DNA of 64,000 nt, taken from positions 19,831,827-19,895,826 of the forward strand of contig OZ035998.1 in NCBI GenBank assembly GCA_964035015.1. Reading direction: 5' to 3'. This document shows, one piece after another, positions 1,172-60,410 of this stretch. The position numbers and the translations under genes are program-made. The notes below the pieces were generated by a model. The model did no database searches. It was given only the letters and a program-made list of their open reading frames with translations, and was not told the origin of the DNA. Each line of letters starts with the position of its first letter. The stretch's first letter is position 1. Source of the DNA: Corallium rubrum. Its lineage: Eukaryota; Cnidaria; Anthozoa; Scleralcyonacea; Coralliidae.

Positions 1172-4100
1172 GTCAGCTTTTTTTTTGCGGTGTTTTGCTT
1201 TGTGTGAATACATTTGCTGTAGTATCCTGGTAACAGTGGTGAAGCTAAGGACAGCTACTGATCATGCTATGCCAATATACAATTATCCAAGCATAGCAAT
1301 AGGTTATGCTATTAGAATTCACAATTGCGGTGCCCTGACGAGTAGCCGCTGAGCAGCTGGCTCGTTAGGTATAGCTTTATCTTCCGAGTGTCACTTTTTT
1401 GTGGCAGTCGTAAGTCACGGACACAGAAACGTGAAACATGGGCTCTGGGAACGAGAATATAAGCGATATTTTGGACGCCAAGGATTTTGGCGGTTTTTTG
1501 TGAAGAAAAGCACTGAGCATTTCGCAGGTAGATACTGCCTGACGTGCTAGCGACTAGAGGTTCAGAATTTTGCTTGACTTTTGTGCAGAATTGATAGCCA
1601 CAGCCACAAAAACGTTATGAGCTCTGGCATTGTCGCATTGAAAATGGATGTTTTTGACGCGAAAACTTTTGACGATCTTCGTGAAGCAAAGCGTTTGGCA
1701 GACTAGTTAGCGGTTAGATCGTTAGGCAGCTTTATACTACGGCGCCCTGATAAGCTTGTTAGGTAGCTTTATATTCTGGGTGTTTGATGGGATCGTACAT
1801 TTTTTGTGGCACCCGTAGCCACGGACACAAACATGGGCTCTGGGAACGAGAATACAAGCGACATTTTTTACGCCAAACAGGGAACCGCTTTTTAGCACTT
1901 TGTCTGGTTACCAATAACATTCAGAAATCAAGCAAAATATATGCAATAAGACAATAATTATGATTTAAAAAATGCATTGACTTAAAAGCTTTAGTAGTCA
2001 AGCTAGCGGTCGTGCTAAACATAACCTAATATTTCCAGAGGCATCGGAGCGAGAAAAAAGTAGGTGGGTAGCGACATCCCAATTTCCACATATCTATGCT
2101 CCTGCGGAAAATTTTTGAAATTTGAGTTTCTGAAATGGCATTTCCCGCGATCTGACAGGACATTTGGACAAAATTTTGAACGTTTTAAAGTGCCTATGAA
2201 GCGAAAATTATTATTGTCTTAAATGAAAGAACTCTCAAAACGACAAAGTAACATCTTTTGCAGATCTTCGTTTCCGTGCCTCGTTGAGATATTTCAATTT
2301 TTTTGATATGCAAATTAAACACTTTGACGTCACACGTGTATAATGAGTTATCAGAGAAGGTTCGGTATCTTTGCTATTATCAAACGAAATCAATTAAAAA
2401 TCTGTATGTCTAATGCTGTATGCGAAATAGACGCATGCATGATCGGATTCGAAGTGATTTCGTTTGATAATAGCAAAGATATAGAACTTTCTCCGATAAC
2501 TCATTATACACGTGCATGTGATGTCAAAGTGTTTAATTTGCATATCAAAGAAACTGAAATATCTCAACAACGAAGCACGGAAACGAAAGTTCTTTCATTT
2601 AAGACAATAATAATTTTCGCTTCATAGGCACTTTAAAACATATTTTTAATGACACATTTTATCATTTTTACAAAAGATTTTGTCCGAATTGGACGGTTTC
2701 TTTTCTTTATTGAGGACACTGCAGTATTACAATTACATACTTATAAAGACAACTAGAACAGTGGTTACCCAAATGGGAGAAGCTTTAATAATTTGATCAC
2801 ATTTGAATATAGCTATAAGGGAAAATAATGTTTAAAATCAGCAGTGATTTCATTTAAAGTGCCTATGCAACGAAATTTCCAAGTTGGACGGACAATTAAA
2901 TGGAAGTATGTTTATTTAGCGTTTTTATTAAAACCGTGCTTTTCCCCTTAAAAATTGAGACATCATTTAAATAGTTGGCATAGTTGCACAACTACCGACA
3001 TCACTCGACCCCAAATTCTGATTGTCTCCTAAATGCCTCCTCTTGCCGCAATGGCGTGTACTTAACGAGAAAATAAAGGGATTTTGTCGTTCATTTTGTG
3101 GTTAGAAACTTCGAATTTCATAAGTGAACTATTCACGAACGTGTTTTAGTTGTCGAAAATCGACAGTATATTCTTAATTACTCATAAGATACGCGGCTTC
3201 GACTATCTATATTTTAAAACAAATAACTTGGTATGAGTAATTGTACACACCTTTGTGAACACTTTCCCACGAGAGTTCAGTTTTCTAAAGAGTGTTTTGA
3301 ACAGTCTGTTTAATAACAATAAGAATTCATGTAGATCATCATTAGTTCATAGATAATGGAAGAGGAACTGGATAGGAAACTTACGAAACCGGAAACGATG
3401 TTTGCACAAATTGCTATGGTAATTATACACTTATAAGTGGCTAATGCACTTAACGGGTGGTCCCACATGGCCACGATCAGCTATTGCTGAAATTAAACAA
3501 TAGTGTAATATACTTAAGTTCAGCAATGTCTGGTGTTAACCATGTGGGGACCACCCGTTAAGTGCATTAGTCGTTTATAAGTGTATAATTACCATAGCAA
3601 GTTGTGCAAACATCGTTTCCGGTTTCGTAAGTTTCCTATCCAGTTCCCCTTCCATTATCTATGATTAGTTGTGGAATAAAATATGTCTCAACTTTTTGGG
3701 CCAAAAGCCCATTTTTCAAACGCTAAAAAAAATACTTTCTTTAATTATTCGCCCTGAAACTTTCACAATCGAAAGAAGTAATCTCAAACTTTACTTTAGT
3801 GTTATTTTCTCCAACTTGAAAATTTCGTTGCCAAAGCACTTTAATATTTTCTTGTTATTTTGCATGGTAATCATAAGCATATCTTGAGCTTTGTCCACAC
3901 GTATCCGTTTTTGTTTAAAGTGCCACTAACCCCAAAACGTGTTTTGCACGAATAAACATCGCCAATCCAAATGATGAAGAATGCAATATAAATTAACTAA
4001 ATTGGTAAAATCCTCTTGATTTGAGAATCGATTGAAGTGGCGATAATGACGGACACGACGGAGCACTTGGGAGACTGCGTCGAGAAGGGTTTGTGACGTA

Positions 4101-28484: not shown

Positions 28485-30057
28485 TTAAAGTGCCTATAAC
28501 CCCTAGAATTTTTTTAGTTTTCCAAGTAGTAGAGCCGAAATTAGCTGAATAGTTCTTTTACAGTTTTGCATTTGGTCTTTTCGTTTCGAAGATATCTCGC
28601 TTCAAATATTGCAAGAAATCGCTATTTTGAATATCCCGCTAGAAATTTCTGCAAATTGCAAAGAGCCTGGTACCTACATGATGTGACGTAGCTTAAGGGA
28701 CGGAATTTTCTCAGTGACAGTGTTGGTTCTGTTTCAGTGTTGTATACACTGTCATCGAAGCGAAAAAAATGCCAGATAGATGTGTTGTTTTTGGGTGTTC
28801 TAACGAATCCGACTTGACGAAAGGAATTTCACTTCATCGTATTCCATTTTGGAATGACGATCGGGCTGAGGCGAAACGGAGAAGAAAGGTATGGGTCAAT
28901 TTCGTGGCAAAGAGGCGTGATAAATGGAAACCAACAAAGTATTCGGCAGTATGCTCGGCTCACTTCAATTCAGATGACTACGCTATATATGCTATAGAAA
29001 TACCTGGAACTAAAGACTATACGCCAAGACTTAAGAAAGATGACATCGGTGTAATGGTCTTTCCAACAATCTACAAAATATGCGATCCCGTAGAACCATC
29101 CCCTCGAGATAAACGACAGGTGCGTGTTATAATTCAATGTTTGACTTTATTTCGTGAAGAAAGCGTTATTTACCATGCTTTCTTGGTCCGTATATATGTG
29201 TTGATCTATCTTTGTTTAACTAGGCTGCTAAAGAACGAGCGCAGTTAACAAGAGACGATACCTCAGTGGCTAGTCTGTGCCAACCCAGGGAAAAAGACTC
29301 CGAGGAAAACCCTTCAATTGGTGTTGATGTTGATCAATTTCAAGAAATCACAAAACGTAAAAATCAGGTTAGTTTTTTCAGTTTTCTAACTTTCTTTTTG
29401 TTTTACATCTTTTTGTTGATGACGATTAGTATCACGTAATCTGGACATCTTTAGTTGATCAGTGGTTGGTCTTGAGAAAAATGGTTGTTGAACGATTTGC
29501 CGATTTCAACAAAGACGAAATCCAAATGTTAATATATGAATTTATATGTAACCCTACTATTTGCATCTCTTTCAGTTTATCGATGCAGAAAGCCAAACAT
29601 ACCCTGCACCATGTATAGAATGTGCAAGTCTTAAAAATATAAATAAGAAGCTGAGGAACAATTGGGTTGCAACTAAGCATAAACTAAAGTTATGTCGACA
29701 TGAACTCAAATCATCAAGCCTGTCGAAAACTGGTAAGTTACAATTTTTTACAGATTATCTTAAATCCAAGCAATTAAGAAATTTAGGTTGTGTGGAAAGA
29801 TCTTGCATCATTGTCGAATTGCTTACTATTGTTACAGATTATCATAAACTGAAGCAGCAGAAGATACCATCTGGGGAAAGTCAACCACCAAAAGAAGCTA
29901 CTGGTAATCTAGTACATGTACCTGTGGTTGACTGTGAGATGGATAGTGATTTATCAGATGATGAAGAAAGTGAAGATGAGGATGAAGAGATGTATGTTGA
30001 AGAGACAGATGAAGATACTATTTCACAGACAGATTCTGATGATGAAAAGGATGCAAG

Positions 30058-31079
<1,022 letters not shown>

Positions 31080-33606
31080 CTAAAATATATTTTTTTCATA
31101 TTTTTAGAGTGTATGTCAATAATAACGACAATGTTCGTGTACAGCCAAAGTTTATTGTGTTCCTGTCACAGTTACTCATTTTATTCAAGTTCTGTCCATT
31201 TTGTAATGAAAGCAACCCCCAAGTGGAGACTCGGCAGTTGGGAACTATGGCAGTGATAAAAACAACCTGCACAAATTCAAATTGCCGAAAAGAGTTTTCA
31301 TGGAAGAGCCAGCCAGTAATGCCAGGAACAAAGATTCCAGCTGGAAACTTTTTGTTATGTTTTGCTGTTTTGTTGGCAGGGTCATCTGCAAGCAAAATTA
31401 TTCAGATTTTTCAACCACATGGGACTAGCCTGCATCTCACTCAACACTTACTTTAAGCACCAATGGGTTAGTACAGTACTTACTCTGTTAGGATTCTTGT
31501 ACATGATATGCCTGTTATATTAATTGTACAAGAATCACAGGATAACATTTAGTGTGTTGTGAGATATGTTAGTATTTTAAAGGAACCTTTTCTAGCAATG
31601 TAATACTTAGAGAAACTTCTGAGAAATGTGTCATTCCAGAAAAGATCCATACCTCCCCCACAGAGGAAATTTGTGTCATCCAGGGAGGGGAGGGGGGTAA
31701 ATCTACTTCTGATAATAGTAAAATGTACTAGGACATCCGAAGGGGGGAGGGGGTCAACTTCACATTTCCTCCGTGGGGGAGGTGTGGATGTTTTCTGGAA
31801 TGACCCAATCAGGTGGCAACCAAACCCCCAACTGGTGGTTTATACAAGATGACGATGTATTTCTGTCTACCATCTGAGACTTAGAAACTTTTGTGAAGTG
31901 TTACTAGTATAGCTTGAAGAACTTTGTCAGAAAGACATGTAAACCCTAATAATTTTTTTAACAGAAGATCCTTTTGCCCTCTATCCTGCTACATTGGAAA
32001 AAATATCAGCAAGAATTGCTTGACAAGGCAAAGGCTGCTGGGTCAGGATTGGTTATTGCTGGTGATGGGCGCCATGACAGCATGGGCCACAGTGCAAAAT
32101 ATTGCTCGTATACAATATTTAGCTGCACCGCCTCTCTGATAATTCACTTTGCCCTAGTTCAGGTAAGCTAAAAATCACATATATAATTTTACTGTACAGA
32201 TGTAAAAAAATAATACATATGCACGGTATATACATGTACTTTATATAAAACAATATATCCAAAAATAATTCATTTACTGTTTTTTCTTTTGTTACTAACA
32301 GAGAAATGAAGCAGGAAGCAGTCCTGCAATGGAATACATGGCTTTTGAGAAATCCATGACATTTCTGCTTGGAATTGGATTGACCATATCCACATTTATT
32401 TCAGACAGGCACCTATCTATTGCAAAGCATATGAAGGAAAAGCTTAGTGGTATTAAACACTACTTTGACCTGTGGCATTTGAAAAAAAGTGAGTAATATA
32501 ATTGTATAATTTAGTGTTGGTTATTTTGAAGCAACCAGGAGATATGTTAGAACAAACATGAATAAATAACATTCTCAAGGTGCTCTAAAATAACCAATAC
32601 CACCCCTCAAGTAAAAAGAGGAACCAAGCCATGTTGAATCAAATAGTGTAAATACAATTTCCTGGTTAATGCTACTTGATTACAGGTACTACATGTAGAT
32701 TCTAATTAGACTGTCTAGAATATTATTTTAAAAAGGCATGTTAACTTACATGTAGTACTGTATACTTCTGTGTTTTTTAGAGATAACAAAAATAGTAACA
32801 ACTATTTCAAAAGAAAGTGGGTGCCAAGCTGTGTTAGATTGGATAAAGCCATGTGGTAATCATTTGTATTGGAGTGCATGTTCAACTCATGATGGCAATG
32901 GTCAAGTGATTTGGGCTAAGTTCAAATCTTTCCTTAGCCACATAGTGAACAAGCATGAGAATCTAGATGATCCATTATTCAACAGATGTGCCCATGCTCC
33001 AACCATTTCTCATAGAGAATATCTAGTAGAAGGTACAGTTTAATGTACACTGCCATACTGTACTATAAATTATCACTTATGTCATCCAGCAAAATGCCCT
33101 TTAATTTCAAATGCATCTAGGTCAAGATAACAAAAGTCTTTTTAAAAAAAATTTTTACAATGGCATTTAATGTGCCTGATGATTTTTTGGGTTAGCTAAC
33201 CGAACTAGAACCCCTAAACCTTTGTCAGAAACTGGATTTATGACTTAGCTTGGTTTACTCCTACAGTAGTAGTATCAGGTAGGGGTTATAAATTTTAGTT
33301 CTTTACGAAAGGCTTATTGAAAGAAGAGAACGTTTGGGAGGCAGAGGGTTAATAAAATTTCTTAGGTAAAAGGAAATAATTATGATAATGTATTTCAGTA
33401 TTTATCTTTTTGATACTGCAGGTTCTGTGGCACACGAGAAGCTTTGCACCAACCTCACCAAGTCTCGACTGGTCAGTGCGATACAGAAGGCCTCACCTAT
33501 TTCCCAAACTAGTTGCCTAGAAGGCTTTCACTCAGTCTTGAATCAATTTTCACCCAAAATGATAAATTACTCTTTTCCAGGAATGTATTGCAGGTTTGTT
33601 ATGTTT

Positions 33607-33789
33607 ACAACAATCGAAATATGGTAAGGTTAGATATACTGCCGAAACAGAGAACGTAGGAGTCTAACGTTTCGAGAAGGCCCTTCATCAGAGAAACTTT
33701 ACATTTCTCTCTGATGAAGGGCCTTCACTCGAAACGTTAGACTCCTACATTCTCTGTATATCTAACCTTACTATATTTCGATTGTTGTT
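33607..33789. mobile_element. Palindromic insertion in transposase intron 9
   Basis: About 80-bp inverted arms: AACAATCGAAATATGGTAAG at the left and its near complement at the right. Both arms include AGGAGTCTAACGTTTCGAG-type sequence and a GAAGGGCC(T)TCATCAGAG centre. It begins a few bases after the exon 9 donor at 33593. Confidence 0.65.
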
Positions 33790-34878
33790 TCTACACTGCC
33801 TATGCAGCACGCTACTTTTATTGTTATGTTTACATGTATTTTCATGTATTATAATTTTTCTTACTATGTGATTGTTAAACACATTGAAATTAGATACAGT
33901 CCCTGTATGCTGGTTCACAACTGCTGTATTTTATATGTTTATTACTGGTATGCACATTCCTATGCTATTGTTTAGGCACATTTTGGCTGCAATACATTTC
34001 AATTACAATTTACATCGGAAAATAAAAAACAAGAAAGATGGATCACAGCAGATAAAAGTTGTGTACCCCAAATTCAAAAATGGTGAGGGCACAGTAAGAG
34101 ATATCAGAGTTCAACCAAATTTTGGTAAGCTACATATTCAGCTATTAGTTCATTCTTGTTGAATGTTTTTCTTGTTTCATGTAAACATGAACTTCCGAAT
34201 ACATGTGCCACCAAAATGCCTTACATTACACTTGTTGTAATTTTTCATTTTTATTGTAGATTACGTGGATGAGGTTTTTCAAACAATAGTTACAGCTATT
34301 AAAAAAACGCAACTTGAAAGTGCCTTCCAAGAATTGAAAAGCATGACACCTTCACATATGAACACAATGCTGGAAAAACAATCTAGGGAAGAAGCCCTGA
34401 AGAAGAGAGATGACCGGCGACTTATGACTTTACCAAATGTCCCACCCACAACACCAGGTAGAGTACAGAGATGGTAGATATAGTATTGGAGTGTATTGCT
34501 GTTCGTAGTTTTCTCTTTTGACATGCAATATACTGTATATACATATACAATACAGTATATACTGTATATGCACTGTTCATTGTTCACAACCACTGCAATC
34601 ACCAGTGGTCATAGGGAATTTGTCTCATACCCAATTTGTCTCATTTATTTTATTACAGTCTCAGAGCTGCCTACACCTGTTCCTGCAACACAACCAAGGA
34701 ATGCCTCCACAAGGTCAAAGCCACATTGTGTAGTTTGCAAGCAACCTATGAAAGGCCACAAGAACGTGACTGATTGTCCAAAAAATACACGTGTTTCAAC
34801 TAGCACATTAATTACTGACACTGAGGGAATTACATTGAGAACATTAATTTTAATAAAAATAATGATAAATTACTACTA

Positions 34879-35055
34879 CTTATACTATATATATATATAT
34901 ATATATATATACTATATATATATATACTATATATATATATACTATATATATATATACTATATATATATATACTATATATATATATATATATACTATATAC
35001 TATATATATATATACTATATATATATATACTATATATATATACTATATATATATA

Positions 35056-35123
<68 letters not shown>
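34879..35123. repeat. (TA)n/ACTATATATATATAT microsatellite
   Basis: A TA-rich tract with a regular ACTATATATATATAT period. It lies in the last exon of the transposase gene, so the reading frame passes through it as tyrosine/isoleucine. Confidence 0.95.
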
Positions 35124-35127
<4 letters not shown>

Positions 35128-35272
35128 TAAAGAGTTTGAAGCTGGTTTAAAAAGTTTTAAAAACATACTAAATTTTCGACCACCTTCTGTGGTCTTTAGT
35201 ATGTTTTTTTAGTATGTTTAGTATGTTTTTAAAACTTTTTAGATCAGCTTCAAACTCTTTACTTAATATGAT
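35124..35272. terminator. Inverted repeat between the two convergent transposon genes
   Basis: TAAATAAAGAGTTTGAAGCT at the left and its near complement AGCTTCAAACTCTTTACTTA at the right, plus AAAGTTTTAAAAACATACTA and complement, make arms of about 50 bp. It lies where the + and - transcription units meet and contains AATAAA on the + strand. A role in 3'-end formation is inferred only. Confidence 0.4.
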
Positions 35273-35302
35273 TAACACTGACACCCCAATTCATTAGCAA
35301 TG

Positions 35303-36419
35303 TTATTCATCATCATTGAAACCTGTAAACTGTTCCTTTTCATCTTTGAACTTTTCTCGTATTGCATTATATGCACAAGCTGGCAATGCCCTCCTTTTTT
35401 CACCAAGATAGCCATGAATTAAATAGGTAAATTCCCTATATGCAACACTGCGAAGGAAACTAAAACAAAACAAAATTTTATATTATGTAAAGAAATTCAG
35501 TCAATTAGATGCACAGAAATTTGAAAGATAACGTAAGAAAAGTAAACTAAGTTAAAAAATAACTCATAATATGAAATTCCATGAAATTCTATAAAGAAAT
35601 TTGCTCTTCAATCTTCATATAGAGTTGTCAATAATAAGAGTTTGGATATTTTAATTACGATTCTTACCGCTTCTGAGCCCCTTTGTTTATATAAAGTTGT
35701 CAATAATAAGAGTTTGGATATTTTAATTACGATTCTTACCACGCTTCTGAGCCCCTTTGTTTATATCTCCTTCGATCTCGACTCTTGTATTTATGAGCCG
35801 AAGTTCTCAAAGACCACTTCTCTAAACAGACTGGTTGAAATCCTGGGTGTTGAGTTATACACGATGGCGGTTGTGAGACATCTTGTAAAACCAATTCATC
35901 AGCGAGCGAGGTTAAACAATTGTCTATTTCCTGGCAGCATTTACACTCGTAAGGATTTTGGAGATGTTGGACGGCACAATAACCACACTTGCACCTTAAA
36001 GTAAAATAGCGCTCGTTGATCATCACAAGACATGTATTTAAGTCGTTTTTTATTAAATAGATCTAAATATAAACAGGAATATTGTCATAATTGAGTATTA
36101 AACGTACTTACCACGAATGCTCTGGCTCGGTACCGTCAAGTCTTCGTTGTAACTCCTCTCCCTCCCTTTGTTGATCTCTTATCTGTTTATTATATTCTTG
36201 TATCCATTCGTCATTTGCAAGAGGTTCATCAGCGTATGCATACATAATGGAATCGTCGAAGTCGTCCTCTGTCGCTGTAGACGCTGCTTCTGCCCTGGCA
36301 TTGGAAGTGAGTTGCCTCCGTTCTTGAAGATCATGCTCGTCTTCAATCGCGTAAGTCGGAATATAGTAAAAATCTGAGTCGTATTGACTATTCTCTGACT
36401 CTGAGCTGCTGTCTGACAT
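35303..36419 (-). CDS. P2RX7_C ('ballast') domain protein encoded inside the Kolobok element
   Basis: Three exons (36419-36112, 35994-35740, 35459-35303) join in perfect phase to 239 codons with no frameshift or stop. Residues 1-103 are acidic and Ser/Glu-rich with EEYN-like helices, so probably disordered. The domain starts at C104: CKCGYC, then ECKCC (120-123), C129, C148, HPGFQPVCLEKW (152-163), and after the last splice SVAYREFTYLIHGYLGEKRR and LPACAYNAI...FTGF. This is the cysteine-rich, zinc- and guanine-nucleotide-binding C-terminal module of vertebrate P2X7 receptors, which also occurs alone in many invertebrate proteins. There is no channel domain or membrane segment here. It is convergent with the transposase gene and enclosed by the same TIRs, so it is probably the element's second gene. 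Function unknown. Confidence 0.85.
35615..35762. repeat. ~80-bp tandem duplication spanning a splice donor
   Basis: GTTGTCAATAATAAGAGTTT..TTAATTACGATTCTTACC..GCTTCTGAGCCCCTTTGTTTATAT occurs twice in tandem. On the minus strand it duplicates the end of exon 2 of the P2RX7_C gene together with its donor. The distal copy lacks two bases at the exon/donor junction. Confidence 0.85.
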
Positions 36420-36902
36420 TTTTAAAACGATTTAGAGTACCAGAACCCGGCAAAGAAAACACGTTTTCTGTATATGATGATACTTGTTGCATAATATGCG
36501 TCCCTTAAGCTACGTCATCACGTTGCTCGTCCCAGTTCTCTTTTATTTGCGGTTTTTTCTTGCTAATAGCAGTACTTAAATGTCAATATCTTCGAAACGA
36601 AAAGACCAAATGAAAAACTGTAAAAGAACTATTCAGCTAATTTTGACTCTACTACTTGGAAAACTAAAAAAATTCTAGGGGTTATAGGCACTTTAAACTG
36701 CATGAGTGTGTTTATAAATACATGCGTATAAACACGCTATAAAGTAAAGACAAACAGCACTAAATTACTCACATTTTTGGTTCTTCTCATTCTTTATCAA
36801 TAACTCCCGGTTTTACCTCACATATAATTGCATGAACTCCTCATAAATTCACTTTATTATTAAAAAAAACTCCTCGACGAGTCTCCGTATACTAAAAGAA
36901 AT

Positions 36903-38585
36903 CAGAGGAGGTCCGAACGTCGTCCCATGATGCACTGCGTTTTGGGGGGTCCCTAAACATATTATCAATTTTCAAGGCCTTGTGTGGTCATTCGGTGTTG
37001 AACTGCGAAGCGAAAGCAAAATGGCTGAGGCAATGTCAACAAATAGCACAAATACTAACAGGTTTTTTAAGAAACGGTTAAACAAGTCTGATGTATTAAC
37101 ATCTGACATCTTGTTTTTGTACTGCGTCGGGAAGGGAAGGATCAAGTGTAACAGTCGACATTTCACAGTTTCGATCTAGTTTGTCGCGAAGCCCATGTCA
37201 GCTATCCTGATAATTTGTCGGAGCGAGGAATTGTGATGATGCTGGATTCTGATGCAATCGCAAAGCTTGAGATGGATGAGGCATTGTGCCCAATTCTCAT
37301 AAAGATTGAAAACAGTTGCCTATTCCAGGTAGAACAGTGTAAATTCATTAATATATTTAAGATAGTGTGCTGATAATCGTTGCGAATCAATAGCATTTAA
37401 AAGTGTTTTTAATTTTGCACGTCAAATACATGAAAAATAACTTTTACTAAAGCAGTGTTTATATTGTGGTGATTTAATTAGTTCGCATGCTTCGACGATG
37501 ATGAAAGAATAAGTGAAGCTTTCCTGATCGTCGATTTCAAGGTAATGCCAAGTGCACCTTTGAATTTGGTTGAATGTGATTTTCAACTGGCATCCCAAAA
37601 TTTCGACCCGTCTGATATCGTGCCCTTAGTTCATCCTGAGTAGCAATCTCGTTTGCAATTGTGCCACAAAAGGAACGCATCTTTTTACTTTTATAATTTC
37701 TGACGATGGCGATGAACAACAAAGTATTAGTGTTAATACACAGGATGACGTTGATGAAATTTCTGTTCCTATTGCTTCACTCGATATTGTTGGAAATGAA
37801 ATCGACGAGGATCGCGATCAAGAACAACTAGATGTTGGGGATGACGAGGAAAACCTGAGGGAAAACGAAGGCCAACAGGCCCAACACCAGTATTAAATAG
37901 TCAAGCGTGGAGCTGTCGCTGACGGGATATCTTCGCTGGCGTCGAACGTTGGGGCTAAACTTCGCCGTGTAGCTCGACTGAACGATCGTGATTTAGATCG
38001 AATAATTTTCTGAGCTGGCTTCTCCGGAGTAAGTCCCGAAGGAATATGTGGACGTTTGGTTGATGTTTTTGGCGATGCCATCAGTATTCACATGCTTGAT
38101 TTCGTAATTAATTTAGGCTTGCGAGGTAAATATTGCGTAATACTGGTGGTATTTGAATTGCATAATTTTCAGGGATTTCATGGGTAACTTTGGGTAACTT
38201 TAGTACCTTTCGGTAGTTTTTAACCTATTCTATCCCTATTGTAAGCAAACTGTCCCTTTTATCACTTTATTACCTTTTTATCACTGCTAAAATACATGCC
38301 ACGTTGACCGGAAACCCGAGTCGCAAACAAGATAGCCGTTCAAAACCTTGTCGTAAGCATATTTATTTTTGTTCAAACGAACTGGAAACGTTCTCTACAA
38401 GAGCTACAGACAAGCGTTATTTATTTTGCGAACTCTTTTATCATGAAACCTACGGCTAATGGTATAAACAAAAGATTTCAAATACGGACATATTTACGGA
38501 AAATTCCGACGCCGGCCTTCTTACTTCCTGTTAAGGAAAACAAAAGCACGCGCTGCCTTATGGGACGACGTTCGGACCTCCTCTG
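36903..38585. mobile_element. 1.68-kb DNA element with 9-bp TSD (MULE- or hAT-like)
   Basis: TIR CAGAGGAGGTCCGAACGTCG (26 identical bases in all) is at both ends, with direct AAAAGAAAT at 36894-36902 and 38586-38594. A 9-bp duplication favours Mutator-like and the CAGAG terminus favours hAT, so the superfamily is unresolved. The interior has coding-like remnants: an ATG frame at 37021 (MAEAMSTNSTNTNRFFKKRL) and an acidic stretch at about 37710-37895 (DDVDEISVPIASLDIVGNEI) ending in a stop. These look like decayed exons of an unknown element gene. Confidence 0.7.
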
Positions 38586-38884
38586 AAAAGAAATGGTCGC
38601 CTGACATTTGCATTTTATGCGGGCCATGTTGAGAGGCCTAGGTCTAGAACCCAAAAGTTGGGCTACTATGAAGTATTTGCTGTCGAAAACAAAGAAGACG
38701 AGGACATGACCCGATTACAGAAGGATATATAATTAATGGGTAATAGAACGAATTGAATCGTGCTATTAATGCCAAATCATACTCGTGATTAACCAATCCA
38801 CCTCCCGCTGCGCGGTCGGTCGATTTTGTAATCACTCATATGATTTTGGCATTAATAGCACTCCTCGTCGTTCTATTACCCTCA

Positions 38885-47681: not shown

Positions 47682-48001
47682 CTACCATATGTAGCCCGAG
47701 TAATAAGGAATAACAAAGGGCCTAAAATAGAGCCCACACTTCACAGTACTTAAATTAGATTGACAACCACCAACGAAACAAGATTGTTTACGCTCCGAAA
47801 GATACGATTCAAACCATTTTAGCGAAATTTCATTTACTCCATAAAATTGAAGCTTTTTTAGCAAAATATTATGATCAACCGTATCAAATGCTTTAGCTAA
47901 ATCCAGAAATACTAATAACATTTCTGAGGGTATATTCCAGTCAGAACTGTTTTGTTAAAAATCTTACATATAGTGAAGCAGAAATAACTGGGGCCCCTAA
48001 T
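47682..48001 (-). pseudogene. LINE reverse transcriptase fragment (left of the long-TIR element)
   Basis: Minus-strand reading gives [17 protein letters not shown], then after a stop and probable deletion [20 protein letters not shown] and [19 protein letters not shown]. This is the RT finger/palm including the first catalytic aspartate (FLDLAKAFD). It continues across the 48002-51062 insertion into 51063-51425. Confidence 0.82.
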
Positions 48002-48657
48002 GGGCCAATTGCAGAACTGCAAAGCATCATGGTAGTTTAGTTACACGGCAGAATTTTTCAACATGGCGATTGTATTTTTCGAACGAGGGAAGGTGCTAAA
48101 CACACGAGAATTGGAAGAAAAGTTTTATCATTTTCGCTTCGATTAAAGTTTATATCAAATCTGTACGTCTTGTTTTATATTTTTACCGAATCTTGGGTTT
48201 CTACGAGCGAGTGTAGTTGAAATATTCAACACGGCGTACAGAGTCGCTGAAGCGGGGGATGGCTTCGATTCGAGGTAGTCAGACACAAATTTTGGAATAT
48301 TTCACAATATAAAGGTAAGTACTGCATTAAATTATTTTCAAGATAAGGAACACGTTGTGACTCATTGTTTGCCTGAAAAATTCGGCGATCGATTTAATTC
48401 TAGAGACTTGAGAGACAATTAAAATGTTTGCACACTTGACCGTCCCGAAACAACACATGTTTGATCAAACGTTCTTTTCACAAACCAAAACATTGAGGTT
48501 GTTTTAAAAAGTACTTTTAAGTACTATTCACTGCTGTTCAAGTGTCTTACTGGAGATTTTTAACTACAGCATATTTACGCGAGTCTAATTTAAAGCAACC
48601 TCGCTTGTTTCGAGTATATTTTGGAAAGTTTCGAGCCGTTAGGTTTGGTTTACAAAT

Positions 48658-48975
48658 ATGGAGGAAGGAATACAGTGGACAAGAAACCTCAGTGGTATTC
48701 CCCCATTTACCCATGCATTATTAAAGCAACATTTGATAACTGACGACTCAAGTAAACTTGGAAAACCACCAAATGCTCACAAGCATAAAAAGTACAGGTA
48801 TCAACTTTTCAAAGACAAAATGGTTACCCAGGATGTAGTCAAGGCTAATGTTTTGAAAGGCACAGAAAGGTTTTTCCTGTTTAAAAGTGTTGTGCATGCC
48901 TCCATGAAAAAGGCACACTATGCAGTCTATGTTCACCTACACCAGGACACTGGTAAAATATCTCGTGATAAATAA
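48658..48975 (+). pseudogene. Inverted 5' copy of the SWIM/YqaJ gene
   Basis: It encodes the first 103 residues of the minus-strand gene almost unchanged (MEEGIQWTRNLSGIPPFTHA at its start) up to GKISR. It then ends two codons past the arm boundary (DK, stop), lacking the SWIM motif. It exists because the terminal inverted repeat includes the gene's 5' end. Confidence 0.82.
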
Positions 48976-48989
48976 AATAAAGTGAACTA

Positions 48990-50406
48990 AAAAAAAAAAA
49001 GTTTTGGTAACATTGTTTTGTACCATAATTCATGGTCAAAGTAAATTCTCTCACTAAATACTTCTTTGTTTGTATAAACAATAATGTCTCCCCAATTAAC
49101 TTTGCATGCAGACATAACACCCTGCATTTGGTAAAAATGATGATGGTTTTGCTTTAGTTGTGGTTTTCCATTCAGTTCATGTAAAAAAAACTGCACCAAG
49201 CCATGGAGCTTCTGTGTTAATAATTAACCCACACTGAACACATGCAGTCATTATTAGTTCATTAAAATTCTTTTGTTCCAAATATTTTTCAATGGCAGTC
49301 TGCTCATTACTGTTGCCCCACTGACATGCTTCTGGGGGCTTTGTAACATTACTTGCTGGTAATAGGATTTTGCTAAGTAGTGATGTGGGGAAAACATTTT
49401 CTCTTCATTTCATTACTGTACCAAAATGTGAGGCAGTTAAACGACCTCTTCGTTCATGAAACCAAAGTTTGCTCTGTGACTGACCTCTTGTATTACGTTC
49501 AATGTCAACCATTTGTTCTTTGGTTGTAAAAAGAATGTTTTCAGTATATGGTGTATACTCTGGAGAAGGTAAATGTTTGCACACTTCCGCAAAGTTAGGA
49601 ACAGTAATTTGTTCCAGTATAGATTCCCTTATTTCAGTATTGTACATTTGATTTGCAAATAGGTTTGCATCATTGAATGCCTTTTTTGAAGGCAATTCCT
49701 CAAGAAATTCTTGGTATTGAAATGGTTCACAATTATTGGATGCTGAAAGGCCCTGTAAATAATCACAAGTTCCAACAGTTTTCAAACCACCCTCAAGTTT
49801 TCTTAAGTCATCAACATTTACATGTTTAGCAAAAGCAGGTGCTGGGTTGTTGTAGTCTGCTGTGTAATGTTTTTCTGTCTTGGCAGTTGCCTTGCTTATT
49901 TTAACTTGATCAAAAAGCAATGCAGTATCAAGTTTCTCACTAGTATTAGGAACATGCCACTGTTGTAACAGTTGTGTGCATGTTAAATCATCTGGGACTT
50001 CTGTTAACTCGAGTTGAATATAGTCCAAAATTTGAAATAGCAGGGCGGCTACATGTTTACAGCAACCACCTTGTCCTGCTGTACAAGTGCAACTTGCACG
50101 AGATATTTTACCAGTGTCCTGGTGTAGGTGAACATAGACTGCATAGTGTGCCTTTTTCATGGAGGCATGCACAACACTTTTAAACAGGAAAAACCTTTCT
50201 GTGCCTTTCAAAACATTAGCCTTGACTACAACCTGGGTAACCATTTTGTCTTTGAAAAGTTGATACCTGTACTTTTTATGCTTGTGAGCATTTGGTGGTT
50301 TTCCAAGTTTACTTGAGTCGTCAGTTATCAAATGTTGCTTTAATAATGCATGGGTAAATGGGGGAATACCACTGAGGTTTCTTGTCCACTGTATTCCTTC
50401 CTCCAT
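48990..50406 (-). pseudogene. SWIM zinc-finger / YqaJ-nuclease protein, disrupted
   Basis: The ATG is at 50406, and 333 codons are open to a TGA at 49405. Residues 106-118 form the SWIM motif (CTCTAGQGGCCKH). RRGRLTASHFG near 321 opens a YqaJ/lambda-exonuclease-like domain. Beyond the stop the same frame continues with CQWGNSNEQTAIEKYL and TACVQCGLIINTEAPWLGA. It then jumps to LKQNHHHFYQMQGVMSACKV and WGDIIVYTNKEVFSERIYFD. The segment between (normally the catalytic D..ExK part) is missing, so the gene carries a nonsense codon and an internal deletion. YqaJ proteins of this kind accompany eukaryotic DNA transposons. Confidence 0.8.
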
Positions 50407-51062
50407 ATTTGTAAACCAAACCTAACGGCTCGAAACTTTCCAAAATATACTCGAAACAAGCGAGGTTGCTTTAAATTAGACTCGCGTAAATATGCTGTAG
50501 TTAAAAATCTCCAGTAAGACACTTGAACAGCAGTGAATAGTACTTAAAAGTACTTTTTAAAACAACCTCAATGTTTTGGTTTGTGAAAAGAACGTTTGAT
50601 CAAACATGTGTTGTTTCGGGACGGTCAAGTGTGCAAACATTTTAATTGTCTCTCAAGTCTCTAGAATTAAATCGATCGCCGAATTTTTCAGGCAAACAAT
50701 GAGTCACAACGTGTTCCTTATCTTGAAAATAATTTAATGCAGTACTTACCTTTATATTGTGAAATATTCCAAAATTTGGGTCCGACTACCTCGAATCGAA
50801 GCCATTCCCCGCTTCAGCGACTCTGTATGCCGTGTTGAATATTTCAACTACACTCGCTCGTAGAAACCCAAGATTCGGTAGAAATATAAAACAAGACATA
50901 CAGATTTGATATAAACTTTAATCGAAGCGAAAATCATAAAACTTTTCTTCCAATTCTCGTGTGTTTAGCACCTTCCCTCGTTCGAAAAATACAATCACCA
51001 TGTTGAAAAATTCTGCCGTGTAACTAAACTACCATGATGCTTTGCAGTTCTGCAATTGGCCC

Positions 51063-51425
51063 ATTTGAGAAGCTTTGCTGGTATATTATCTAGCCCAGTA
51101 GCTTTTCCAGATTTTAAGGAACTATAAGCAGTGTGGAAATTCCATCCTCAGAAACTGTTTGAATTGAAAAAACATCCTTAGTTTGTTTTATGTATACCTC
51201 AAGTTGGGTATATCATCACCTACATCAATTTTATCTGCCAACGTGGGTCCAACATTTACAAAATAATTATTTAAATACTCTGCAATTTTATTTGATTCAG
51301 TTATTACTTCTTTAGTTATGGTTGATTTAATGTTTTGAACTGAAACATTTTTTTCTTTACGATGCATTAAAGTATCAATTGTTTTCCACAACATCTTTGG
51401 GTTTCCTGGATTTTGCCTAATCTGT
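51063..51425 (-). pseudogene. LINE fragment, linker and RT start (right of the long-TIR element)
   Basis: The minus strand encodes QNPGNPKMLWKTIDTLMHRK, then IAEYLNNYFVNVGPTLADKI, then LKSGKATGLDNIPAKLLK, the conserved block just before the RT palm. The frame drifts by indels. The copy ends at the AT next to the 48002-51062 element and resumes at 48001. Confidence 0.82.
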
Positions 51426-59128: not shown

Positions 59129-59649
59129 TTCTAGATCATCGAGTATTCATGTCGCAGTTCTAAACGGCTTTGAACAAACGTTCCAATCTTTCTCTAAAGT
59201 CTCGAACAAATATAGATTCATCCAACGAACTTAGCCGACCAGACCAGGTGTAATCCTAACATCGTAATGTCTGAGCGAAAATAGCTTAATGTATACTATA
59301 ATTATCCTAGTCGACTTGCCCAATCATGTCACAGGTGTGAGTCATGCGTGAATCATGCGTGAGTCATGCATGAGTCACGGTACGTGAGTCACACTGAATA
59401 TTAATGAGCGGCATCCCTTTGATACACTGGATGGTGGGGGGTTATCTACCGCTATCTCTTTGAAGATATCGAGCAAATGACGCCAACAATAACATGTAAA
59501 CCGAAAATATAGTAAAATGGTCACGCAGAAGTAGTATGACCCTACAAGAAGAGTTAACCCTGCTACAAGGGTCAAACAAGGGCTATCTTTTGGTCACCCT
59601 AATGAATCGTGTCAGCCAAACGTTAGTAAAACAGTACAATAACACTTAC
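59129..59649. other. GT31 intron, nothing recognised
   Basis: GTGAGTCATGCATGAGTCA repeats at 59335-59385; no coding feature. Confidence 0.35.
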
Positions 59650-60247
59650 CACTTGTGCAATGGAGCCAACCCCATGCCAGCTTTTCTTTCGGTCGATGGG
59701 AAAGCTCCAATAACAATTTCTTGAAACAAACAAAATAGTCATCGTCAACGCGGAGTACATACTTGAACTTGTAGCGTTTGTTTGCCCACTTAACCATCCA
59801 GAGATATCTTCTTGCAAAATTCACTCCACCGGGTGACTGAGCCAACAGTAAGTCTTGGTATGTCCTACTTTCATTGTCAAGTTTCAATTTGACTTCGCCT
59901 TCTAAAGTTTTTCCGTTGACATCTTGTCCATCGGTAATGAACCAGCACACAACGCTCTTTTCAGTTTTACACAGAGTTCCCCAGGTTTGTCGAACCGCAT
60001 TTCTTCGCTCTACATGTTGTGGGGCACTGTATATGCCGACGAATAAAAGAAGATCTGTTCGTTGTTCGACAGTCGTGGTCGAGGCTTTGGTCGGCATCGT
60101 GATCGGAGTCGTTTGTTGAACAGCAGACAAAATAGAAGAGTTTATTTTTGTATAAAATGTTTTGTAATAATTTAAAAGAATTAATACTATTACCAAAACG
60201 CCAGCAAAGGCTATATACCTCTTTGCTACAACTCGCGGAAGTGCCAT
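59650..60247 (-). CDS. GT31 beta-1,3-galactosyltransferase-like, 5' exon
   Basis: The ATG at 60247 is the first in frame; the frame is open upstream only to a stop without another ATG. It encodes a type II Golgi protein: short cytosolic tail, signal anchor at residues 11-28 (YIAFAGVLVIVLILLNYY), a Thr-rich stem (45-60), then the GT31 fold. Landmarks are LLLFVGIYSAPQHVERRNAV, RQTWG (86-90), then RTYQDLLL, MVKWA and VLRVDDDYFV with the metal-binding DDD at 168-170, and WGWLHC. The donor GTAAGT is at 59649, phase 1. The acceptor-side exon at 41252-41709 starts in the matching phase. About 25 residues expected between them are not seen, so a short middle exon is probably missing from this annotation. 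Donor sugar is UDP-Gal or UDP-GlcNAc/GalNAc by family; not resolvable here. Confidence 0.85.
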
Positions 60248-60299
60248 GAGAAACTTGCAATTTGTAACTGAACCACGCAAGGAGATGACAGAGATCAAT

Positions 60300-60410
60300 G
60301 CTTCTGACACGTAATCCCCGAGCCGGGCGACGGGCCGAAGGCCCGGAGCCCGGTGAGGGTGCTAATCTCGACACGCGTGGAGCCATTTTACACGCGTGGA
60401 CAAACGTGAT
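60300..60410 (-). promoter_or_regulatory. GC-rich upstream region of the GT31 gene
   Basis: A CpG-dense stretch (GGGCCTTCGGCCCGTCGCCC, ACACGCGTG repeated at 60371 and 60391) immediately upstream of the start codon, in otherwise AT-rich DNA. A core-promoter role is inferred from composition and position. Confidence 0.35.

Follow-up and report, generated by a model that had tools for sequence, protein, structure and literature searches.

The 64,000-nucleotide stretch of Corallium rubrum contig OZ035998.1 analyzed here (the window) contains a DNA transposon that we assign, with a probability of about 0.9, to the Kolobok superfamily as a near-complete member of its KolX-bearing (Kol0) kind, equipped with an element-encoded, putatively accessory protein, KolX. 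The TTAA-flanked unit occupies window positions 28485-36696 and reads TTAA, AGTGCCTATAACCCC..., the inverted copy, and TTAA (Table 1). Exact matches to AGTGCCTATAACCCC occur twice in the window, in inverted orientation at 28489-28503 and 36678-36692. A third site of this type at 3919 carries two mismatches, giving three observed sites with no more than two mismatches where shuffled sequence yields 0.10 by chance. The element ends are alike over ~107 bp; blastn aligns them at 97.3% identity over 111 bp with the TTAA included, and identity is 96.5% over 114 bp when three further flanking bases are counted. The termini, AG...CT, follow the 5'-RR...YY-3' rule described for Kolobok ends (PMC9587614), and the tetranucleotides on either side provide the TTAA target-site duplication that is characteristic of the superfamily.

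Table 1. Features of the Kolobok element in window coordinates.
Feature	Positions	Strand	Remarks
Left target-site duplication	28485..28488	.	TTAA
Left terminal inverted repeat	28489..28595	+	starts AGTGCCTATAACCCC
Transposase exon 1	28769..29119	+	THAP domain (PF05485, E 5.1e-12)
Transposase exon 2	29224..29367	+	
Transposase exon 3	29576..29732	+	
Transposase exon 4	29838..30057	+	acidic
Transposase exon 5	31108..31466	+	one frame-shifting lesion near 3' end
Transposase exon 6	31965..32162	+	first catalytic D, GDG
Transposase exon 7	32302..32488	+	second catalytic D and DxxH motif
Transposase exon 8	32781..33032	+	H2CH zinc-finger motif
Transposase exon 9	33422..33593	+	catalytic E, LEGFH
Transposase exon 10	33976..34124	+	
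Transposase exon 11	34260..34457	+	
Transposase exon 12	34659..34880	+	end coordinate arbitrary: frame open into AT repeat
KolX / P2RX7_C exon 3	35303..35459	-	includes stop codon
KolX / P2RX7_C exon 2	35740..35994	-	cysteine clusters
KolX / P2RX7_C exon 1	36112..36419	-	acidic N-terminal part
Right terminal inverted repeat	36586..36692	-	
Right target-site duplication	36693..36696	.	TTAA

The transposase gene is laid out in 12 exons, each of exons 2-12 being preceded by AG and each of exons 1-11 followed by GT. Pfam identifies the N-terminal THAP domain, in which the C2CH pattern is present, and an acidic stretch separates this domain from the catalytic motifs. Matches of Pfam models to the catalytic half are all sub-threshold, MULE among them, and no model names it; the DDE assignment is therefore made by motif reading. 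With patterns of our own choosing and no profile, the motif order is GDG, SDRH, DLWH, H-x4-H-x10-C-x-H and LEGFH, which reads as the Kolobok arrangement of a DDE triad with C/DxxH and an H2CH zinc finger ahead of the E. In this respect the motifs D, D, DxxH, H2CH and E correspond to the series D, D, C/DxxH, H2CH, E described for the superfamily (PMC6004289; PMC9587614). Translation stays open from the first exon into exon 5 and then through exons 6-12, with the shift falling near the end of exon 5. Because the transposase is frameshifted, this copy cannot be called autonomous. The intron that follows exon 4 contains a TA/TG-rich simple-repeat tract of ~1 kb.

The second gene lies on the minus strand, and its three exons join without lesion to encode a 239-residue protein. 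Support for the first splice junction comes from 36 relatives (of 120 listed) whose open reading frames end in a W matching the end of exon 1, and for the second from the Actinostola protein P0006, which reads GSEACFLR at that point. Alternative neighboring donors and acceptors also keep the frame open and give products of 234-238 residues. A tandem duplication of ~80 bp (35614-35692 / 35686-35766) spans and copies the exon-2 donor, and the frame remains open solely with donors from the first copy. Pfam matches the joined exons to P2RX7_C (PF20478) with E = 2.6e-9 and 37.7 bits, against a curated cut-off of 23.5. The sequence-only reading had described an intact three-exon gene for a 239-residue protein with the P2X7 ballast domain, for which it expected a PF20478 match; it had placed the gene in an element bounded by terminal inverted repeats (TIRs) and TTAA, convergent with a THAP transposase that bears one lesion. 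Each of these points stands: the gene is whole, the domain match was obtained, the inverted AGTGCCTATAACCCC ends are exact with TTAA outside both, the two genes lie on opposite strands of the same unit, and the transposase has the single exon 5 frameshift.

That architecture also bears on the idea that a cellular coral gene came to be surrounded by transposon sequence by chance, through nested insertion or an assembly accident. The opposite strands of gene and transposase could be taken this way, as could the fold-back (self-inverted) repeats inside the element, at 33607-33788 in a transposase intron and at 35120-35269 between its two genes. The gene, however, occupies the space that separates transposase and right TIR within a single TTAA-flanked unit, and the same pairing has been published (PMC9587614), so that we find a chance surrounding scarcely credible.

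The structure model of a homologue predicts a long helix in the second half of the exon 1 part. When this model was compared with Foldseek, P2X7 was the only match among the chains compared, although no row reached E = 0.001 and the TM-scores of 0.35-0.39 refer to the whole homologue model, which is partly disordered. A sequence search of the PDB places P2X7 in the top four rows, weakly (best E = 0.033), and a viral fold library gave no credible match. The fold search supports the link between KolX and the P2X7 ballast. It is through KolX that the element is placed in the Kol0 kind, and the PF20478 match, the fold match of the homologue and the conserved cysteines all point to that placement.

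A single-sequence search returned seven related proteins, and a profile built from eight sequences returned 414 relatives at E = 0.001 or better. The genera named among the best 120 of the 414 are anthozoan: Paramuricea, Acropora, Porites, Xenia, Dendronephthya, Actinostola, Exaiptasia, Montipora and Oculina; one record in the same set (P0077) comes from a gammaproteobacterial MAG. P0082 is 98% identical to exon 1 of the KolX gene described here and is therefore a close relative from a different assembly, which may belong to the same species. Clustering at 90% identity within the best 120 of the 414 gives seven clusters for Paramuricea clavata, five for Xenia, and three each for Porites lobata and Acropora millepora, though these are not gene counts, as some models are partial or variant (P0007 and P0020 begin with identical residues). 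Multiple clusters per anthozoan species fit, but do not prove, a multi-copy mobile gene.

These relatives weigh on the proposal that this single copy of the element picked up a ballast-domain gene of the host on one occasion and carries it as a passenger with no element role. The proposal draws on the fact that one element copy was examined, in which the transposase is broken and the passenger intact, and on the host genes with some conserved linkage described by Rump et al. (PMC7016195). Against it, published work describes KolX as a regular second gene in the Kol0 lineage (PMC9587614), the relatives are many and often several per anthozoan species (among the best 120 of 414), and the gene is well fitted to the unit: its start codon and the inner boundary of the right inverted repeat are 166 bp apart. 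We regard a single capture as highly improbable.

The cysteines of the domain were followed in 35 aligned rows hand-picked from the best 120 of the 414 relatives, with numbering according to P0022 and gaps excluded from the counts. Cys92 (32/32), Cys97 (34/34), Cys110 (34/34) and Cys136 (34/34) are kept throughout, and Cys94 (31/32) and Cys111 (33/34) nearly so. Conservation is lower for Cys108 (29/34), Cys117 (30/35), Cys147 (28/35) and Cys204 (25/30). Expressed by motif, the WC cysteine is kept in 32/32 non-gap rows and the CC cysteines in 34/34 and 33/34. Of the 35 relatives in the alignment, 25 are hit by PF20478 with E no higher than 0.001. Two Montipora proteins (P0062 and P0068) and one from Acropora cervicornis (P0083) form a diverged P2RX7_C branch, in which several cysteines and the HPGF..VCLEKW block are missing and the C-terminal part is retained.

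The same alignment, with its register to P2X7 set by hand from motifs, allows the residues of the P2X7 GDP site to be traced. This site suggests that the 239-residue product could be a guanine-nucleotide-sensing domain and not mainly a zinc scaffold, and the equivalents of rat P2X7 R546 and R578 are Arg in 28/31 and 27/29 non-gap rows. The equivalents of H547 (0/31) and R574 (0/30) are not kept, however, and only R546 and R578 are described as conserved among the GDP residues in invertebrate proteins (PMC7016195). Nucleotide sensing is, in our judgment, an unlikely function for this protein, and a zinc-stabilized accessory domain remains the preferred description.

Searched with four aligned rows, the viral and prokaryotic collections yielded 135 and 124 pattern matches and no confirmed relatives. 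A degenerate HPGF..VCLEKW pattern is found in neither collection and once in the window, in the gene itself. Since these collections are viral and prokaryotic, the empty result is no evidence against recurrence of the gene in other elements. No fusion of transposase and ballast domain appears among 7994 scored candidates, a search whose profile had a padded first row that may have diverted words.

Other features of the window lie outside the element. About 205 bp beyond its right end, a 39-bp inverted repeat (89.7% identity) at 36902-38586 bounds ~1.7 kb of decayed-looking sequence, perhaps another degraded DNA element. Two inverted arms, 47999-48967 and 50097-51065 (span 47999-51065), are 99.1% identical over 969 bp, and a minus-strand open reading frame of 338 codons (50421-49405) starts inside one of them. 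A SWIM zinc finger is recognized in its product (E = 4.4e-5), together with an alkaline-exonuclease match below threshold; NCBIfam assigns the product to no family. SWIM/YqaJ nucleases are accessory proteins of ISL2EU-type transposons. A minus-strand open reading frame at 59612-60361 encodes a galactosyltransferase domain (PF01762, E = 2.5e-9) and is likely a host gene.

The pairing of a Kolobok transposase with a ballast-type protein is not new. Kojima and Bao (2022) described Kol0-lineage elements that encode a transposase and a second protein, KolX, which has the ballast fold and is clearly similar to human P2X7 residues 476-595; they list cnidarians among the Kol0 hosts, regard Nanor as a likely domesticated KolX and derive P2X7 from a P2X4-like gene that became fused to KolX (PMC9587614). 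This was the sole paper that our literature search found to join the P2X7 cytoplasmic ballast with a DNA transposon. The earlier suggestion that a transposon was the vehicle by which the P2X7 tail was captured is thus right, but had been a published conclusion since 2022 (PMC9587614). The present element has in common with Kol0 the TTAA duplication, the RR...YY ends, the DDE transposase and a second protein of ballast fold. The comparison covers the ends, TTAA, transposase and second protein as they are described there, and within that range no difference was established (PMC9587614). With the XKol elements of Xenopus it shares AG ends, TTAA, a transposase with THAP and H2CH motifs, and great length (6,763 to 13,907 bp among the XKol rows seen), but the XKol descriptions drawn on here do not mention a second gene, whereas this element has one (PMC6004289).

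The stand-alone ZCD/Nanor proteins and the P2X7 tail share the zinc-coordinating cysteine domain with KolX. Rump et al. (2020) described this domain as an ancient animal module of patchy distribution, with one to a few genes per species, always fewer than 10, and proteins that are mostly short and free of other domains (PMC7016195). The genes were treated as host genes, in contrast to the KolX gene here, which sits inside a transposon. Domain genes from sponge to mollusc, arthropod and sea urchin were reported to be linked to two markers, read as an ancestral host locus, and nanor-like genes to lack conserved synteny; an Ixodes protein was noted in which a 'TAHP' (presumably THAP) domain is joined to a ballast-type domain, and the main text contains no word beginning with 'transpos' (PMC7016195). 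The marker linkage and the low gene number are a point against a mobile-element reading, as both are more readily explained by host genes than by mobile genes, unless the markers are themselves parts of elements.

The transposase would bind the inverted repeats through its THAP domain and would cut and paste the element into TTAA sites. KolX may be viewed as an element-encoded accessory protein that combines a zinc-stabilized domain with an acidic tail and a basic C-terminal half, and in which no catalytic motif is recognized. The net charge of this one protein, -20 over residues 1-102 and +11 over 160-222, is compatible with contact with nucleic acid or the transposase but is no proof of it. 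KolX probably aids the transposase or the assembly of transposon ends, or tunes transposition. Vertebrate P2X7 would later have taken over the same domain, as published (PMC9587614).

How that transfer occurred may be reflected in gene structure. The P2X7 ballast is encoded by one exon (PMC7016195), whereas the KolX gene here is interrupted by introns in codons W103 and C188. A tentative scenario, which we think more likely wrong than right, is that P2X7 acquired the whole KolX core, the leading helix with the zinc domain (approximately P2X7 411-595, not only the published 476-595), and that within elements the transposase depends on KolX as a partner. The donor would have been an intron-poor or reverse-copied KolX gene, because the core is split over three exons here and the P2X7 ballast lies in one.

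The Corallium element adds to the published account of how a transposon gene became the P2X7 tail a near-complete, clearly bounded example with an intact, convergent, three-exon KolX, and this intact gene could serve in laboratory experiments. The element is likewise consistent with the argument, already in print, that the ZCD genes of earlier surveys, patchy and often duplicated, belong to, or derive from, such elements.
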